DNA of 64,000 nt from Pseudactinotalea sp. HY158 (GTDB lineage: Bacteria; Actinomycetota; Actinomycetes; Actinomycetales; Beutenbergiaceae): assembly GCF_009660225.1 (NCBI RefSeq), contig NZ_CP045920.1:186001-250000 (forward strand), written 5' to 3'. Each line of letters begins with the position of its first letter. Within the stretch, counting starts at the first letter, position 1. The notes below the pieces were generated by a model that had not been told where the DNA came from, searched no databases, and was given only the letters and a program-made list of their open reading frames with translations. The translations under genes and the position numbers were made by a program. Below, piece after piece: positions 4,787 through 11,734 of this stretch.

Positions 4787-7138
4787 ATGTCCCAGCAGCC
4801 CCAGCCCACCACCCCGTTCCCGGCGGCCACGATCCTTGGCTACCCCCGGATCGGGCCCCGCCGCGAACTCAAGCGCGCCCTCGAATCCTTCTGGGGCGGG
4901 CGCAGCAGCGCCGAGGACCTGACCGTCACGGCCGCCGGGCTCCGGGAGGGCACGCGCCGGCGCCTCCAGGCCGCGGGCCTGAGCGAACCGGCCGCGATCC
5001 CCGCGGACTTCGCCTACTACGACCAGGTGTGGTCGGCCGCCTCCCAGCTCGGCGCGATCCCGTCCCGGTTCGCGCACCTGCGCGCCGGCGACTCCCACAC
5101 GGGCGCGCTCGACCTCGCCGGCCACTTCACCGTGGCCCGCGGCGCGGGCGACCTCGCCCCCCTCGAGATGACCAAGTGGTTCGACACGAACTACCACTAC
5201 CTCGTGCCCGAGGTCGGCCCGGACACCGAGTTCGCGCTCGTGGCGAGCGACTCGGCGGACGCCGTCGCCGAGGGGATCGCCGCCGGCGTGGCCCAGCGCC
5301 CCGTCGTGGTCGGCCCGCTCACCTTCCTCCTGCTGGCCAAGGCAGCGGACGACGCCCCCGAGGGCTTCGCCCCGCTCTCCCGCCTCGACGACCTCGTGGC
5401 CGCCTACGCCGCCTGGCTGCGCTCCTTCGCCGCCGCCGGGGCGCAGTGGGTCCAGCTGGACGAGTCCGCCCTGGTCTCGGACACGTGGGACGCCGACCGG
5501 GCCGAGGTGCTCGCCGCCGCGGAGGAGGCCTATGCCACCCTCGCAGCGATCGAGACGACCGAGCGGCCCGCGCTGTTCGTGTCCACCTCCTACGACACGC
5601 TCGGCCGGGATGCGCTCGCGGCGCTCGCCCGCACCGGGGTCGAGGCCATCGGGCTCGACCTCGTCAAGGGCGGCCTGCCGGAGATCGACGCGGACCTGCG
5701 GGCCGCGCTCGCCGGCACGACGCTCGTGGCCGGCCTCGTCGACGGCCACAACGTGTGGCGCACCGACCTCGACGCCGCCCACGCGAAGCTCACCGCACTC
5801 CGCTCGGCCGCAGGGGACGGCGTCCCGGTCGCCGTGAGCACGTCGACCTCCCTGTTCCACGTGCCGCACACGACGACCGACGAGCCCGACCTGCCCGAGC
5901 AGCTGCGCAGCTGGCTCTCCTTCGCCGACGAGAAGGTGGGCGAGGTGCTCGCACTCGCCGCAGGCCCCGAGGCCGCGGCATCCGAGTTCGCCGCCGCGCG
6001 GGCCGCCCGGGACGACCGCGAGGCCGCCGCGGGCGTGCACGTGCCCGCCGTGGGGGAGCGGCTCGCGAACCTCACGGACGCCGACTTCGACCGCACCCCG
6101 TACGCGAGCCGCGTCGTCGTCCAGGATCAGACCTGGGACCTGCCGGCGCTGCCGACGACCACGATCGGCTCCTTCCCGCAGACCACCGAGCTGCGCCAGG
6201 CGCGCGCCAAGCTGCGCAAGGGCGAGATCACCGAGGCCGAGTACACCGACGAGATGCGCGCGGAGATCGGTCGCGTGATCGAGCTGCAGACCCAACTCGG
6301 CATCGACGTGCTCGTGCACGGTGAGCCCGAGCGCAACGACATGGTGCAGTACTTCGCCGAGCACCTCGACGGCTTCGCGGTGACGCAGAACGGCTGGGTG
6401 CAGTCCTACGGTTCGCGCTGCACCCGCCCGTCGATCCTGTGGGGCGACGTGTCGCGGCCGGCGCCGATCACGACCGAGTGGTCGAGCTACGCCGACTCCC
6501 TCACGGACGCCCCGGTCAAGGGCATGCTCACCGGCCCGGTGACGATCCTCGCGTGGTCGTTCGTGCGCGACGACCAGCCGCTCGCCGAGACCGCGAACCA
6601 GGTGGCCCTCGCCCTGCGCGACGAGATCGCCGATCTCGAGACCGCCGGGATCGGCATCATCCAGGTGGACGAGCCGGCGCTGCGTGAGCTGCTGCCGCTG
6701 CGGGAGGCCGCCCAGGCCGACTACCTCGACTGGTCGGTGCGCTCGTTCCGGCTCGCGACCGCGGGCGCCGCGGACGCCACCCAGATCCACACCCACCTGT
6801 GCTATTCCGAGTTCGGCGAGGTGATCGGCGCGATCGACGGCCTCGACGCGGACGTCACCTCGATCGAGGCGGCCCGCTCGAAGATGGAGATCCTCCCGGC
6901 GATCGCCGGCTCCGGCTTCGGTCGCGGCATCGGCCCGGGCGTGTACGACATCCACTCCCCGCGCGTGCCCTCCGCCGAGGAGATCGAGGGATTGCTGACG
7001 GCGGCGCTCGCCTCCGTGGGTGAGCGGAAGCTGTGGGTCAACCCGGACTGTGGCCTCAAGACCCGCGGCTACGCCGAGACGGTCGCCTCCCTCGAGCACC
7101 TCGTCGGTGCCACGAAGGCGGTCCGGGCGCGCCTATAG
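4787..7138 (+). CDS. metE: Cobalamin-independent methionine synthase
   Basis: Transfers the methyl group of 5-methyl-THF-triglutamate to homocysteine. 783 residues in the usual two-barrel form: N-terminal domain from ILGYPRIGPRRELKRALESF, C-terminal catalytic domain from TTTIGSFPQT. The zinc ligands are all visible: His670 and Cys672 in THLCYSEF, Glu694 in VTSIEAARSKME and Cys755 in NPDCGLKTRG. ATG 4787 precedes a conserved N-terminus. The 96-bp gap after metF contains two copies of an 11-bp unit, CACTGATCACC (4733-4754). It is presumably repressed by SAM with metF when they are read as one transcript. Confidence 0.97.
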   Translation: MSQQPQPTTPFPAATILGYPRIGPRRELKRALESFWGGRSSAEDLTVTAAGLREGTRRRLQAAGLSEPAAIPADFAYYDQVWSAASQLGAIPSRFAHLRAGDSHTGALDLAGHFTVARGAGDLAPLEMTKWFDTNYHYLVPEVGPDTEFALVASDSADAVAEGIAAGVAQRPVVVGPLTFLLLAKAADDAPEGFAPLSRLDDLVAAYAAWLRSFAAAGAQWVQLDESALVSDTWDADRAEVLAAAEEAYATLAAIETTERPALFVSTSYDTLGRDALAALARTGVEAIGLDLVKGGLPEIDADLRAALAGTTLVAGLVDGHNVWRTDLDAAHAKLTALRSAAGDGVPVAVSTSTSLFHVPHTTTDEPDLPEQLRSWLSFADEKVGEVLALAAGPEAAASEFAAARAARDDREAAAGVHVPAVGERLANLTDADFDRTPYASRVVVQDQTWDLPALPTTTIGSFPQTTELRQARAKLRKGEITEAEYTDEMRAEIGRVIELQTQLGIDVLVHGEPERNDMVQYFAEHLDGFAVTQNGWVQSYGSRCTRPSILWGDVSRPAPITTEWSSYADSLTDAPVKGMLTGPVTILAWSFVRDDQPLAETANQVALALRDEIADLETAGIGIIQVDEPALRELLPLREAAQADYLDWSVRSFRLATAGAADATQIHTHLCYSEFGEVIGAIDGLDADVTSIEAARSKMEILPAIAGSGFGRGIGPGVYDIHSPRVPSAEEIEGLLTAALASVGERKLWVNPDCGLKTRGYAETVASLEHLVGATKAVRARL

Positions 7139-7171
7139 CGCCGGCCACGGGTCGCCGGCGGTGGCGCCGCG

Positions 7172-7204
7172 CCCCGGGGCGGGCCATCGCGGTCCGCCCC
7201 GGGG
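7172..7204 (+). terminator. Hairpin terminator after metE
   Basis: Perfect 11-bp stem CCCCGGGGCGG (7172-7182) and its complement (7194-7204) around an 11-base loop, 33 bases after the metE stop. No U-tract, as is common in high-GC actinobacteria. Confidence 0.6.
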
Positions 7205-7216
7205 GCCCCGCTGGAC

Positions 7217-7400
7217 CTATCGCGGTCGGCCCCCGCTGCGCCTATCGCGGTCGACCAGGGTGAAACCCGGGGTTTCCCCACCGACTTCCCGGGTTCGGCC
7301 CTGGTCGATCGTGGCAGTGCGGGTTTGGCCCTGGTCGATCGCTGTAGTGCGGGTTCGGCCCTGGTCGATCGCAGGATCGACGGTTGTGCCCTGGTGGCGG
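7217..7400. repeat. 30-bp tandem repeat tract with an inverted copy
   Basis: The 301-bp gap between metE and the YigZ gene holds no gene. After the terminator come two copies of CTATCGCGGTC (7217-7227, 7242-7252), then a segment TCGACCAGGG-TGAAACCCGG (7251-7270). Three direct units follow, starting at 7291, 7321 and 7351, each opening GGGTTCGGCCCTGGTCGATC (7321 has one T change), plus a degenerate fourth from 7381. The 7251-7270 segment is an inverted version of the unit head, so it could pair with any of the three. Function unknown. Confidence 0.75.
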
Positions 7401-7439
7401 GTCGGCCCGGTTGGGTTCAGCCGGCCTGCCCGGGCCGGC

Positions 7440-8081
7440 TCAGCGGTCGACCCAGGTGGTGCGGCGCACCCGCGTGTTCGCCGTGCCCGCGGTGAGCCCG
7501 GCGATCTGGGCGGCCAGCTCGCCCGGCTCACCCGGGGTTCCGAGCAGGAACGTGACCCGCTCCGCGTAGGCCACGTCGAGCACCGCGATCCCGCGGGCCC
7601 GCAGGTCGGCCTCGAGGCGGCCGGCGCGCACGTAGCCGTCCTCGCCCAGGGTCACCTCGACCTCGGTCACGAGTTCCCGGCGCTGAATCGGGGCGACCTC
7701 GACCGCGGCCCGCACGGAGTCCGAATAGGCGCGCACGAGCCCGCCGGCCCCGAGCAGGGTGCCACCGAACCACCGGGTCACCACGGCGACGACGTCGCGC
7801 AGTTCCGCCCCGCGGAGCACCTCGAGCATCGGGGCGCCCGCGGTGCCGGCGGGTTCGCCGTCGTCGCTGCTGCGCTCCATCGAGTCCGGGTCGCCGGCGG
7901 GGCCGAGGACGAAGGCCGAGCAGTGGTGGCGGGCATCCCAGAACTCGGCGCGGGCCCGGGCGATCGCCTCCCGGGCCGCCTCCTCGGTCGCCACCCGGGT
8001 GAGGTCGCAGCGGAACCGGGACCGCTTCACCTCGATCTCTGCCGAGGCCTCCCCGGAGATCGTGCTGTACTGCCGGCTCAT
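7440..8081 (-). CDS. YigZ/IMPACT family protein
   Basis: 213 residues. Seen: the family signature SSDDGEPAGTAGAPML around residues 70-85, then VVTRWFGGTLLGAGGLVRAY, both diagnostic of the UPF0029/IMPACT N-terminal fold, and a smaller C-terminal ferredoxin-like half. Eukaryotic relatives (IMPACT/Yih1) modulate translational control through GCN1; the bacterial role is unsettled, with suggested links to proline peptidase or ribosome function. ATG 8081 starts MSRQYSTISGEA, a typical N-terminus. Transcribed divergently from the HNH gene across 166 bp. Single gene, convergent with metE across the repeat tract. Confidence 0.9.
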   Translation of the reverse strand: MSRQYSTISGEASAEIEVKRSRFRCDLTRVATEEAAREAIARARAEFWDARHHCSAFVLGPAGDPDSMERSSDDGEPAGTAGAPMLEVLRGAELRDVVAVVTRWFGGTLLGAGGLVRAYSDSVRAAVEVAPIQRRELVTEVEVTLGEDGYVRAGRLEADLRARGIAVLDVAYAERVTFLLGTPGEPGELAAQIAGLTAGTANTRVRRTTWVDR

Positions 8082-8247
8082 CGGTGGATCACAGGCGGTT
8101 CGTCGGCGGCGCGGCGTCGGTGGTCATGAACCCATTGTGCCGTGCTCGCGGGCTCCGGGACGCGGCGCGATCCCCAGGCTGCGGGGCAATCCACAGGTGC
8201 CCGCACCGGCCGCGCACCCGCCGGGGAAGGCCGCGCACACTGGCCCG

Positions 8248-9339
8248 ATGGCGCAGGAATCCCGCTCCGGAGCGCGCACGGCCGGGACCGTGATCGCCGC
8301 GGCCCTGCTCGCCTGCGCACTCGCGCTCGTGATCCCGCGCTGGTGGATGCTCGTTCGCCCCCACGGCGCCACCCCGGTGGCGCAGGAACAGCTGGCGGTC
8401 GCGGAGGAGGCGCTCGGGCGGCTGCCCGTCGTGGTCCCGCTCGACCTCGACGACTACGAGCGGGACTTCTTCGGCCCCGCCTGGCAGGACCCGGACGGCG
8501 CGGTCTGCGATACCCGCAACCGGGTGCTCGCCGCCTGGCTCGAAGACGTGACCGTCGATCCGAGCAATCCCTGCCTCGTGGACTCAGGCTGGTTCGTGGA
8601 CCCGTACACCGGCGCCATGCTCACGTTCGAGCGCGGTCCGCGGACGAGCCGGGAGGTGCAGATCGATCATCTCATCGCGCTCGCCGACGCCTGGCGCAAG
8701 GGCGCCCATGCCTGGCCGCGCGGGCGTGCGCAGCGCTTCGCCAACGACGTGAGCAACCTCATTCCCACGGACGGCGCAGCGAACCAGGCCAAGGGGGCCG
8801 CCGACGCGTCGGGCTGGCTGCCGCCCGCGCGCGGATACCGGTGCGCGTACGTGGTCCAACAGATCCTCGTCAAGGAGGCGTACGGGCTCGGCGTCAGCTC
8901 CGAGGAGGTCGGGGCGATGGGGGAGGAACTGCGCGACTGCCCGGTCGCGAGCGGCCCGACGCCCGCGCCCGTGTCGGTCGCCGGCGGGTCGGCCTCCGGC
9001 GGCGCGGCCGGGCGGCGGAGCGGGTCCGTGGGAACGTCTCGGGGCAGCTGTCGGGGCGGGTCACGGGCCACGGCCAGGAGCACGTCTCTGCGCGGGCCTC
9101 GGGCCAGGGGCGGACGTGTCTCTCGGCACGGGGGCACGCGTCGTGGTGGCGGTCGTGGTCGTGGTCGTGTCGGTCGGGCGGGATACGTTGTGTCCACTCC
9201 CCGAACCGACCCGGGACCCCAGCGGTCCGGAAAGCAGAGACACCGTGTTCGTACTCGACCAGACGCTGGTGCTCACCGCCGCCGACCTTGCGGAGGAGTG
9301 CGAATATGGCCTCCTCCACCAGGCGGCGGCACTGCATGA
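8248..9339 (+). CDS. Membrane-anchored DUF1524/HNH endonuclease with long Arg/Gly tail
   Basis: 363 residues. One N-terminal hydrophobic helix (about residues 12-34, ending PRWWML) suggests a membrane anchor or uncleaved signal. Residues about 55-235 are a DUF1524 (GmrSD C-terminal-like) nuclease domain: VQIDHLIALADAW with the catalytic-type His, and NDVSNLIPTDGAANQAKGA. The conserved part ends near 8942 (LRDCP). The remaining 130 or so residues are low-complexity, Ser/Gly then Arg/Gly rich (for example RGGGRGRGRVGRAG), and run 95 bases into the next gene. Either the tail is real and the genes overlap, or a frameshift has removed the native stop. Similar proteins in actinobacteria are often secreted or surface-exposed nucleases. 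ATG 8248 puts the hydrophobic helix at the N-terminus. Confidence 0.75.
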   Translation: MAQESRSGARTAGTVIAAALLACALALVIPRWWMLVRPHGATPVAQEQLAVAEEALGRLPVVVPLDLDDYERDFFGPAWQDPDGAVCDTRNRVLAAWLEDVTVDPSNPCLVDSGWFVDPYTGAMLTFERGPRTSREVQIDHLIALADAWRKGAHAWPRGRAQRFANDVSNLIPTDGAANQAKGAADASGWLPPARGYRCAYVVQQILVKEAYGLGVSSEEVGAMGEELRDCPVASGPTPAPVSVAGGSASGGAAGRRSGSVGTSRGSCRGGSRATARSTSLRGPRARGGRVSRHGGTRRGGGRGRGRVGRAGYVVSTPRTDPGPQRSGKQRHRVRTRPDAGAHRRRPCGGVRIWPPPPGGGTA

Positions 9340-11734
9340 TCGGCTGCGGGGCGGCAATGCCGGTCGTGCGGGTGCGGCCGGCAGCGCTGGTCGTGCAGGC
9401 CGTGCTGCTGGGGCCGCTCGGGCCGCTGGGGTTGGTGAGGCTGGTGGGGCCGGACGTGGCGGCCGGCCCGAGCGCGGCCGCACGATCGGGGAGCGGATCG
9501 GCGCCCTCGCCCGCGAGCGCCGCGAGGAGGTGGCGACCCGACTCGTCGAGGAGGCGGGCGGCGCGAAGCCCGCCCTCACCCGGATCGGGCGGGCAGAACG
9601 CACCCGACGCGGCTACGTCGAGCAGCAGGAACGAACGATCGCCGCGATTCGTTCGGGCGCCGCCGTCGTCGCGGGGGCCGCCTTCTTCCACGACGGACTC
9701 CAGGTGAGTGCCGACTTCCTCGTGGCCACGCCGCGGGGTCATCGGATTCAACTCGTGACCACGGCCCGGCAGACCCGGGTCAAGGACCTCGTGCGCGTCG
9801 GCGCCATCGCGGCCGCGGCCCGGGCGGCGGGCATCGTGCTCGACCCGGAGGCCGTCGTGGAATCCACCGGCCCGGCCACGACCCACGCCCTCGAGGATCT
9901 CGAGGTCGTGGCCGGGCTCCGCCGGGAGCGGCTCGAACGACTCCTCGCGACCGGCGCCGGGGCGGATGTGGGGCCCGAATGGGGCGACGAGACCTGGTGG
10001 TCCTGCGGCTACTGCTCCCCCTGTCGCCGGGGCATCGAGGAGCATCGGGACGTCCGCCTCGTCTGGGGCCTGCGCCGCCACCATCGCGCCGCCCTCCTCG
10101 GTGCGGGCATCCGCACGATCGACGAGCTGGCCGCCACGGACGGGCCCGTGCCCCACCTCGACCATGCCGATCTCGACCGCCTCCGCGGCCAGGCCCGGCT
10201 GCAGCTCCGGCAGGAGCGGGCGGAGGCCGCCGGCGCCGACGTGACCGTGTTCGCCGAGGTGCATTCCCCCGGCGTGCTCGCGCGGCTTCCGATGCCCGAT
10301 CCAGGCGACCTCTTCTTCGATTTCGAGGGGGACCCGTGGTGGCACGACGGCCGGGAGTGGGGACTCGAATACCTCTTCGGGATCAGGGAAGCCGATACGA
10401 GCGACTACGTGACCTTCTGGGCTCATTCACTCGCTGAGGAGAAGCGCGCGCTCCTGGGATTCCTCGACTATGTACGGGAGCGGCGACGGGCCCGTCCCGG
10501 GATGCACATCTACCATTACGCGTTCTACGAGCCCGCCACGCTCCGACGGCTCACGCAGCGCCACGGGGTCGGCGCGGAGGAGGTGACCGACCTGCTCGAC
10601 GCCGGGGTCTTCGTGGATCTCTACGACGTGGTCAAGCACGGCGTGCACGTCTCGCAGCGCTCCTTCTCCCTCAAGAAGCTCGAACCGCTCTACATGGGCG
10701 AGGAGCTGCGCACCGACTCGGCCGTGACCGACGGGGGAGCATCGATCCTCGTCTACGAGGAGGCAACCCGCGCCAGGCAGCGCGGGGACGGGCAGACCTG
10801 GCGCGAGCGGCTGGCCGACCTGGCCGAGTACAACGCCTACGACTGCCGCTCCACCGAACGGCTGCGCGATTGGCTGCTCGCCCATCGCGACGACCCGGCT
10901 GAGCTGGGAGACCCGGGCGAACCGGGTGGACCAGGCGAACTGGGTGACCCGGGTGGACCAGGCGACCCGGGTGAACCGGGTGAGTCGGGTGGACCAGGCG
11001 ACCCGGGTGAACCGGGTGGACCAGGCGACCCGGGTGAACCGGGTGAGTCGGTCGAACCGGGCGAACCGGGCGCGAGGCTCGAGAGCGCGGCGGTCGACGG
11101 CATGCCCGAACCCCGGCGCCTCGGGGGCGGGTCGGGGTGGGCGGCCTCCGCGTCGCGCCCGCGGATCGAGTCGGAGGAGGTGGCGCACCGTCATCGCAGC
11201 GCGACCGCCCCGGAGGAGGCCGCGGCCATCCGCGACCGGCTGCTCGGACCGGAGGGTGGGGCCGCAGTGGGGCAGGATTCGGGCCGACATTCGGGTGGGG
11301 GTTCGGATCAGCGTTCGGGCCGCGAGCCCGCCGGGGAGTTGGGCCGGCATGCGGTGCGAGACTCGGGACCGAGGCCGGCGGACGTGCTCGTGGTGGCGTT
11401 CACGTCGGACCAGGCGGACCTCCTGCGAGATGAGCTCGCGGCGGCGGGAATGCCCTCGGTCCGGGTCGAGGCGGTCGCCGAATCCGGCACCGAACCGGCC
11501 GATGCGGTGATCGTCAGCGTCGTCGCCTCGACCCTGGCCGAGGCGGTCGGCGGACCGGCCTCCATCCTCGATCGCGAGGTGTGGGAGCGCCTGGTGGGCC
11601 GGGCGCGGGAGGTGATCCGCGTCGTCCATTCGGATCAACTGCTCCAGACCATGCCACGCGAGGCCGACGTGCTCCCCGGCGTCGCGGCGCTCGCGCGACT
11701 GCTCCGGCCACTCGAGACGAAACGCGGGCGGTGA
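9245..11734 (+). CDS. TM0106-family RecB-like protein, degenerate: RNase H-like domain kept, nuclease motif and helicase lost
   Basis: 829 residues from GTG 9245, chosen because VFVLDQTLVLTAADLAEE matches the family N-terminus; GGAAAG lies upstream and a TACGTT -10 candidate at 9184-9189. Order: Ala/Gly/Arg-rich insert (residues 35-80); RecB-like nuclease region with SADFLV; a cysteine cluster SCGYCSPC; an RNase H-like (DEDD-type) domain with LFFDFEGDP, HIYHYAFYEP and YNAYDCRST; then a collagen-like Gly-Pro repeat; then a remnant (DVLVVAFTSDQADLLRDELA, VIVSVVASTLAE) that resembles the last part of an SF1 helicase. Family members usually carry a D-x-K nuclease motif after DFL and a Walker-A helicase of several hundred residues. 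Here the D-x-K position reads VTTARQT and no Walker A is seen. Confidence 0.75.
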   Translation: MFVLDQTLVLTAADLAEECEYGLLHQAAALHDRLRGGNAGRAGAAGSAGRAGRAAGAARAAGVGEAGGAGRGGRPERGRTIGERIGALARERREEVATRLVEEAGGAKPALTRIGRAERTRRGYVEQQERTIAAIRSGAAVVAGAAFFHDGLQVSADFLVATPRGHRIQLVTTARQTRVKDLVRVGAIAAAARAAGIVLDPEAVVESTGPATTHALEDLEVVAGLRRERLERLLATGAGADVGPEWGDETWWSCGYCSPCRRGIEEHRDVRLVWGLRRHHRAALLGAGIRTIDELAATDGPVPHLDHADLDRLRGQARLQLRQERAEAAGADVTVFAEVHSPGVLARLPMPDPGDLFFDFEGDPWWHDGREWGLEYLFGIREADTSDYVTFWAHSLAEEKRALLGFLDYVRERRRARPGMHIYHYAFYEPATLRRLTQRHGVGAEEVTDLLDAGVFVDLYDVVKHGVHVSQRSFSLKKLEPLYMGEELRTDSAVTDGGASILVYEEATRARQRGDGQTWRERLADLAEYNAYDCRSTERLRDWLLAHRDDPAELGDPGEPGGPGELGDPGGPGDPGEPGESGGPGDPGEPGGPGDPGEPGESVEPGEPGARLESAAVDGMPEPRRLGGGSGWAASASRPRIESEEVAHRHRSATAPEEAAAIRDRLLGPEGGAAVGQDSGRHSGGGSDQRSGREPAGELGRHAVRDSGPRPADVLVVAFTSDQADLLRDELAAAGMPSVRVEAVAESGTEPADAVIVSVVASTLAEAVGGPASILDREVWERLVGRAREVIRVVHSDQLLQTMPREADVLPGVAALARLLRPLETKRGR
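10903..11073 (+). repeat. Collagen-like Gly-Pro repeat inside the RecB-like gene
   Basis: Nineteen or so 9-nt units coding Gly-Asp/Glu-Pro or Gly-Gly-Pro, with a higher-order 27-nt block (GGACCAGGC, GACCCGGGT, GAACCGGGT) repeated. It lies exactly where the helicase domain would begin in relatives. Confidence 0.9.

Follow-up and report, generated by a model that had tools for sequence, protein, structure and literature searches.

Can a protein that has lost both its helicase motor and a nuclease active site still be a working enzyme, or is its gene on the way out? The question is raised by a TM0106/TIGR03491-family protein of 829 amino acids (aa), encoded by a single open frame at 9245-11734 on the + strand, with its stop at 11734, in a 64,000-nucleotide stretch of the genome of Pseudactinotalea sp. 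HY158 (NZ_CP045920.1, positions 186,001 to 250,000; the whole stretch is called the window, and the protein the window protein). An earlier note, made from the letters of this DNA, had rightly placed a RecB/TM0106 protein here and had left two readings of it, a pseudoenzyme in decay or a specialised exonuclease with a disordered tail. The comparisons reported here favour the second. Judged by its sequence, the window protein is probably a functional specialised exonuclease on an iron-sulphur (Fe-S) pseudonuclease platform, with a nuclease-exonuclease-helicase of the actinobacterial DNA2-like (TM0106) type as its ancestor.

Domains lost and domains retained

Family membership is given by the profile TIGR03491 (TM0106 family RecB-like putative nuclease), which matches aa 120-544 to model positions 53-462 with 134.8 bits against a cut-off of 97.45, and by the Pfam domain RNase_H_2 (PF13482), matched with 54.9 bits against a cut-off of 22. 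The GTG start at 9245 coincides with the start position of relatives, and a stop-free run of 829 codons has a chance of about 1e-6 at the local base composition. No second TM0106 copy is found in the whole genome, which consists of one contig of 3.65 Mb. By descent the window protein is a degenerate member of the TM0106 family; as far as its motifs tell, it no longer functions as the family's kind of nuclease or helicase.

The best preserved part is the exonuclease domain, which keeps 70 of 72 strongly conserved residues, counted here and below against 31 intact relatives. The earlier note's statement that the DEDD acids are kept holds for D359, E361 and D533. The third acid is glutamate (E429) throughout the family, so that the catalytic set is strictly D-E-E-D and DEDDy-like. 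All residues of Exo I-III are invariant in the family, the DEDDy tyrosine included. The structure prediction and selection analysis that the earlier note had proposed both bear on this domain. The model of the window protein has a predicted local distance difference test (pLDDT) score of 78.5 overall, 87-98 in the exonuclease blocks and below 50 in the linker, and its aa 352-553 superpose on the 3'-5' exonuclease of B-family DNA polymerases (Z 12.9, root-mean-square deviation (rmsd) 3.5, 168 residues). Exonuclease activity with 3'-5' polarity is thus predicted for the window protein.

Selection was estimated for each domain with the GY94/F3x4 codon model on 14 orthologues and the gene-tree topology, allowing separate omega (dN/dS) values for the window branch, a helicase-less g8 clade described below and the background. 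On the window branch the exonuclease has an omega of 0.070, equal to the background, and omega=1 is rejected (p=9e-10). The Fe-S/hinge part is held as tightly (omega 0.056; omega=1 rejected, p=8e-6). In contrast, the nuclease gives 0.53, for which omega=1 is not rejected (p=0.26) and the background omega is (p=2e-9). The RecA2 remnant lies between, with 0.165, for which omega=1 is rejected (p=7e-4) and relaxation relative to the background is evident (p=1e-5).

Residue counts follow the same division. Within the nuclease domain 16 of 41 strongly conserved residues are kept, and three of the four RecB-nuclease motifs (GxxHE, DxK and QxxxY) are destroyed, the sole survivor being the motif II aspartate D157. 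The earlier note had seen that the D-x-K position reads VTTARQT; in alignment this is L170-V-T172, and with GxxHE and QxxxY gone as well the nuclease is dead. In the Fe-S/hinge part 20 of 22 such residues are kept. The CxxCxxC cluster was noted before, and a fourth cysteine can be added to it, completing the iron-staple C...CxxCxxC arrangement (C19, C254, C257 and C260, each at least 97% conserved in relatives); the four would presumably bind an Fe-S cluster. Consistent with the nuclease part, a Foldseek search with the window model returns Cas4.

Between the exonuclease and the beginning of RecA2 the helicase motor is missing, and a Gly-X-Pro tandem repeat with a spacer stands in its place. 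As the earlier note had it, no Walker A is present in the window protein; nor is there any AAA_11, AAA_30 or above-threshold AAA_12 match that would point to an SF1B (superfamily 1B) helicase. The Gly-Pro tract and the short remnant of the last helicase domain reported before are also borne out. RecA2 resumes at aa ~639, where the best score is 53, to an intact protein of the sister genus (G011), against a mean of 27 for shuffled sequences (P about 0.003), and it is then interrupted by low-complexity sequence. It keeps 17 of 44 strongly conserved residues, and Foldseek with the window model returns Ighmbp2/Dna2 over about the length of the remnant. A complete helicase gene split off nearby had been considered, and there is none; the whole-genome search finds the remnant only. 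Coordinates of all parts are collected in Table 1.

Table 1. The TM0106-family gene of the window and its parts, in window positions
Feature	Position	Strand	Basis or remark
Whole gene, starting with GTG: motorless TM0106/TIGR03491-family protein of 829 aa	9245..11734	+	open reading frame, TIGR03491 match, alignment
RecB/Cas4-like 'iron-staple' nuclease domain, pseudonuclease, aa 1-230	9245..9934	+	lost motifs, selection; fold predicted, high pLDDT
C19, presumed N-terminal Fe-S ligand, kept	9299..9301	+	97% conserved in relatives
Gly/Ala/Arg low-complexity insertion, ~40 aa (aa ~38-78), inside dead nuclease	9356..9478	+	partly disordered in model
Former motif I, GxxHE to AxxRR (aa 89-93)	9509..9523	+	
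Former motif III, DxK to LVT (aa 170-172)	9752..9760	+	
Former motif IV, QxxxY to RxxxI (aa 184-188)	9794..9808	+	
CxxCxxC (C254, C257, C260), presumed other Fe-S ligands, kept	10004..10024	+	
DnaQ-like 3'-5' exonuclease (RNase_H_2) domain, aa 346-548	10280..10888	+	Pfam, selection, fold
Exo I DxE (D359, E361)	10319..10327	+	
Exo II HYAFYE, third acid E429	10514..10531	+	invariant in family
Exo III YxxxD (Y529, D533)	10829..10843	+	DEDDy signature
Gly-X-Pro (collagen-like) tandem-repeat linker	10889..11074	+	disordered in model
First strand-helix piece of RecA2 (aa 639-668)	11159..11248	+	best alignment to intact sister-genus protein
Low-complexity insertion within RecA2 remnant	11249..11368	+	
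Rest of the RecA2 remnant (aa 709-822), lacking helicase motifs V/VI	11369..11710	+	

At the DNA level the Gly-X-Y tract is a short tandem repeat (10891-11072). A triple-helical collagen role was considered for it and set aside; the Pfam Collagen match (25.2 bits) falls below the cut-off of 27.2, and the tract is predicted to be disordered. GC-rich Gly/Pro/Glu/Ser low-complexity expansions occur in more than one gene of this genome, in the window at 9356-9478, 10891-11072 and 11249-11368, and a protein encoded elsewhere (L004, G000:C1:2261306-2264373) has a similar GESADAGESVEPGEAG-like stretch. The gene upstream (8248-9339, +) carries a GmrSD_C/HNH-type domain (Pfam, 40.1 bits) and an Arg/Gly-rich C-terminal extension of more than 100 aa that overlaps the start of the TM0106 gene by 95 bases, apparently through read-through of its usual end.

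Inheritance in place and other proteins without the motor

A TM0106 gene is present in all 24 genomes examined from the same taxonomic family. Of the intact relatives the closest (L058, genus g7) is 1190 aa long; TIGR03491 and RNase_H_2 both match it, and its SF1 helicase is complete (AAA_12 with 92 bits, AAA_30 and AAA_11), the nearest named helicase family being IGHMBP2. Searched by sequence in the PDB, its helicase part matches SMUBP-2/UPF1/DNA2 and its N-terminal half has no match to a solved structure. Near the gene, metE and/or VIT1 are found in most family members whose region was read, a common neighbourhood from which it follows that the orthologues were inherited in place; this synteny and the tree together establish orthology and vertical inheritance. 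Intact orthologues in the sister genus were, according to the earlier note, to mean that this copy is simply decaying. Such orthologues are there, yet the inference fails under the domain-by-domain constraint. They are new relative to the earlier note, as are a second helicase-less lineage that keeps its nuclease and the selection on the RecA2 remnant.

The second lineage comprises five species of g8, another genus of the same family (L066, L067, L068, L069 and L070), with frames of 755-792 codons in which RecA1/1B is absent and the RecA2 lobe lacks motifs V/VI. Their nuclease is intact (VVD[TS]KLARS; 39-40 of 41 conserved residues; omega 0.056), as is their exonuclease, and no split-off or relocated helicase is found in any of the five genomes. 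The model of one of them (G018) reaches a pLDDT of 90.2, and its RecA2 aligns with that of Ighmbp2 (4b3g; Z 17.1, rmsd 2.7, 163 residues). This motor-dead lobe is under selection in the clade (omega 0.128; omega=1 rejected at 2e-42). Both the rpoB tree and the gene tree unite the five in a single clade, beside g8 species that have the full protein. That another lineage tolerates the same motor loss counts in favour of a functional window protein. In one of the five (L067, G020, 7051-9318, -) degeneration of the RecA2 remnant has gone much further than in the other four (end branch 2.48), with nuclease and exonuclease intact, possibly reflecting ongoing erosion of the lobe.

The gene tree places the window protein with the intact g7 proteins (95/93). 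A single clade of all helicase-less proteins is rejected by the approximately unbiased (AU) test, both on nuclease plus exonuclease columns (p=0.003) and on the well-conserved Fe-S plus exonuclease columns, where the window branch is short (p=0.004). These results bear directly on the possibility that the helicase loss is common to the window lineage and the g8 helicase-less clade, the truncated C-terminal half having been shared through recombination or transfer. A tree of the RecA2 remnant only does unite the window protein with the helicase-less proteins of g8, but the support (93/95) stays short of significance by the standard of the tool, and the end branches measure 3.05 and 2.48. Branches as long as these make the grouping unreliable and suggest attraction, together with shared loss of motif residues, and the first RecA2 piece scores 53 and 50 to the intact sister-genus proteins of G011 and G013 versus 32-35 to the g8 helicase-less proteins. 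A common loss is therefore unlikely; with the AU tests, the sequences favour independent loss of the motor in the two lineages over C-terminal recombination.

In an order-wide sample of 149 genomes, 52 have the family above cut-off, and nearly all the other frames are of about 1100-1480 codons. Among short frames in the wider surveys those individually inspected were G028, G107 and G153, all outside the taxonomic family. The frame of G107 (581 codons) is that of an ordinary short TM0106 protein whose nuclease motif (GDVKLHK) is intact and which has no remnant of a helicase; G153 has the gene divided between two frames. Stand-alone TM0106 frames of short length are found in other parts of the class as well. 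The frame of G028 (898 codons; L124, 3998-6694, +) has nuclease and exonuclease intact and a helicase that breaks off past its N-terminal part, which could be a third helicase loss or an assembly fault. Within the sister family, the TM0106 gene of G005 (L077, 5186-9186, -) lies in two overlapping frames of 749 and 962 codons, apparently by frameshift. In G002 there is, besides the orthologue in L059, another full-length TM0106-helicase protein of divergent sequence (L081, 5923-9225, -).

Decay, scaffold or specialised exonuclease

If the gene were decaying, it would be an early-stage pseudogene in which motor and nuclease went first and the decay of the exonuclease is still to come. The nuclease omega near 1, the low-complexity insertions at three places and the degraded RecA2 fit such a course. 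On the same branch, however, the nuclease lost 25 of 41 conserved residues and the exonuclease 2 of 72, neutrality of the exonuclease is firmly rejected, and no stop falls within the 829 codons. Purifying selection on the exonuclease and the Fe-S/hinge part, together with the stop-free frame, speaks for an exonuclease under selection, carried on a presumably folded though catalytically dead nuclease platform, rather than for a pseudogene, and leaves the first of the earlier note's two readings quite unlikely.

Some points weigh against a functional exonuclease. Synonymous sites on the window branch are saturated, its length being at the bound of 12 in two domains, so that the omega point values are rough, and the constraint is read from one long branch, the genus being represented in the comparison by a single genome. 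The three low-complexity insertions and the erosion of the nuclease mean relaxed constraint over about half of the protein. The fold model was built with the sequences of relatives and so gives no separate proof that the dead nuclease retains its fold. Saturation does not, however, explain the contrast between domains of one gene.

Improbable, too, is a protein that mainly binds DNA or serves as a scaffold without catalysis, its exonuclease residues being retained to bind metal or nucleic acid and not to cleave. It would suit a dead nuclease, a dead RecA2 lobe, a long disordered linker and an Fe-S/hinge part as tightly kept as the exonuclease; it accounts poorly for the invariance of every Exo I-III residue down to the DEDDy tyrosine. 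That sequencing or assembly errors hide an intact nuclease or helicase behind frameshifts is hardly credible, although the split record of G005 and the truncated one of G028 show the kind of case, since the genome is a single contig whose search finds the remnant only and tblastn with intact relatives gives in-frame matches only, with no convincing out-of-frame nuclease or helicase pieces.

For a functional specialised exonuclease the following course may be proposed. The ancestor would have had an SF1B motor of the UPF1/Ighmbp2/DNA2 kind at its C-terminus, joined to a RecB nuclease with an Fe-S 'iron staple' and to a 3'-5' exonuclease of the DEDDy type. In the window lineage RecA1 and its insertions would have been deleted, the disordered Gly-X-Pro linker substituted and RecA2 left behind as an inert lobe, while the nuclease lost its active site and retained its Fe-S fold. 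The Fe-S pseudonuclease and hinge could then bind and position single-stranded DNA or a DNA end and pass the DNA on to the exonuclease, which would digest it 3'-5'. A motor, if needed, might be supplied in trans by another helicase, by analogy with MrfB (YprB) of Bacillus subtilis, a DEDDh exonuclease with a TPR domain for which MrfA is the proposed partner helicase (PMC11194089).

Known systems and what the locus may mean

Like MrfB, which is also RNase_H_2-like, the window protein would be a stand-alone DnaQ-superfamily exonuclease working with a separate helicase. It differs from MrfB in being DEDDy-like (YxxxD), in its Fe-S pseudonuclease and in having no known partner helicase. RecB-type folds without catalysis, or with a structural or DNA-binding Fe-S cluster, occur in the degenerate or Fe-S nuclease domains of the RecC/AddB type; these are parts of multi-subunit helicase complexes. 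The short helicase-less TIGR03491 members, such as G107 (581 aa), share the two-domain core, the family score and the absence of a helicase, and differ in their intact nuclease motif and in having no helicase remnant. It is the RecA2 remnant of the window protein, whose nuclease is dead, from which a secondary loss of the helicase follows. Closest in form is the g8 helicase-less set, with RecA1/1B deleted at the same boundary, RecA2 without motifs V/VI and a variable linker; its nuclease is intact and its origin separate.

Literature searches on TM0106/TIGR03491 returned nothing relevant. An anti-phage assignment was rejected, because in an intact relative the PADLOC hits (MkoA/MkoC, DpdJ) fall mostly on the helicase portion, and the window protein gives no such hit. 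The nearest described system is that of the DNA2-like proteins; Wilkinson et al. 2020 (PMC7430649) describe in Bad proteins a conserved central domain whose structure and function are unknown. By architecture and taxonomy, the intact relatives appear to fit the actinobacterial (second) class set out there. With that class the window protein shares the Fe-S RecB nuclease N-terminus, the central conserved domain and a RecA2 piece, and its intact orthologues in the same family and gene neighbourhood have the SF1B motor; it differs in lacking RecA1 and Walker A, in its dead RecA2 and in the loss of nuclease motifs I, III and IV. In the actinobacterial form the central domain is modelled as a polymerase-type exonuclease fold.

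A wider, tentative suggestion, which we hold with less than even confidence, is that DNA2-like proteins of actinobacteria have the exonuclease as their functional core, motor and endonuclease being dispensable additions. RecA1/1B would have been removed at least twice at the same boundary, selection having preserved RecA2 as a scaffold without motor function; the window lineage would have switched off the endonuclease as well. If so, the window protein would be a natural separation-of-function form that shows the role of the unexplained central domain. The predicted proofreading-type fold of that domain in actinobacteria, kept in the window lineage while motor and endonuclease were discarded, means that a small protein without a motor lends itself to a direct test of what the domain does. 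How helicase-nuclease fusions are dismantled can be studied in an unusual experiment of nature, the parallel loss of RecA1 in proteins that keep a dead RecA2 lobe.

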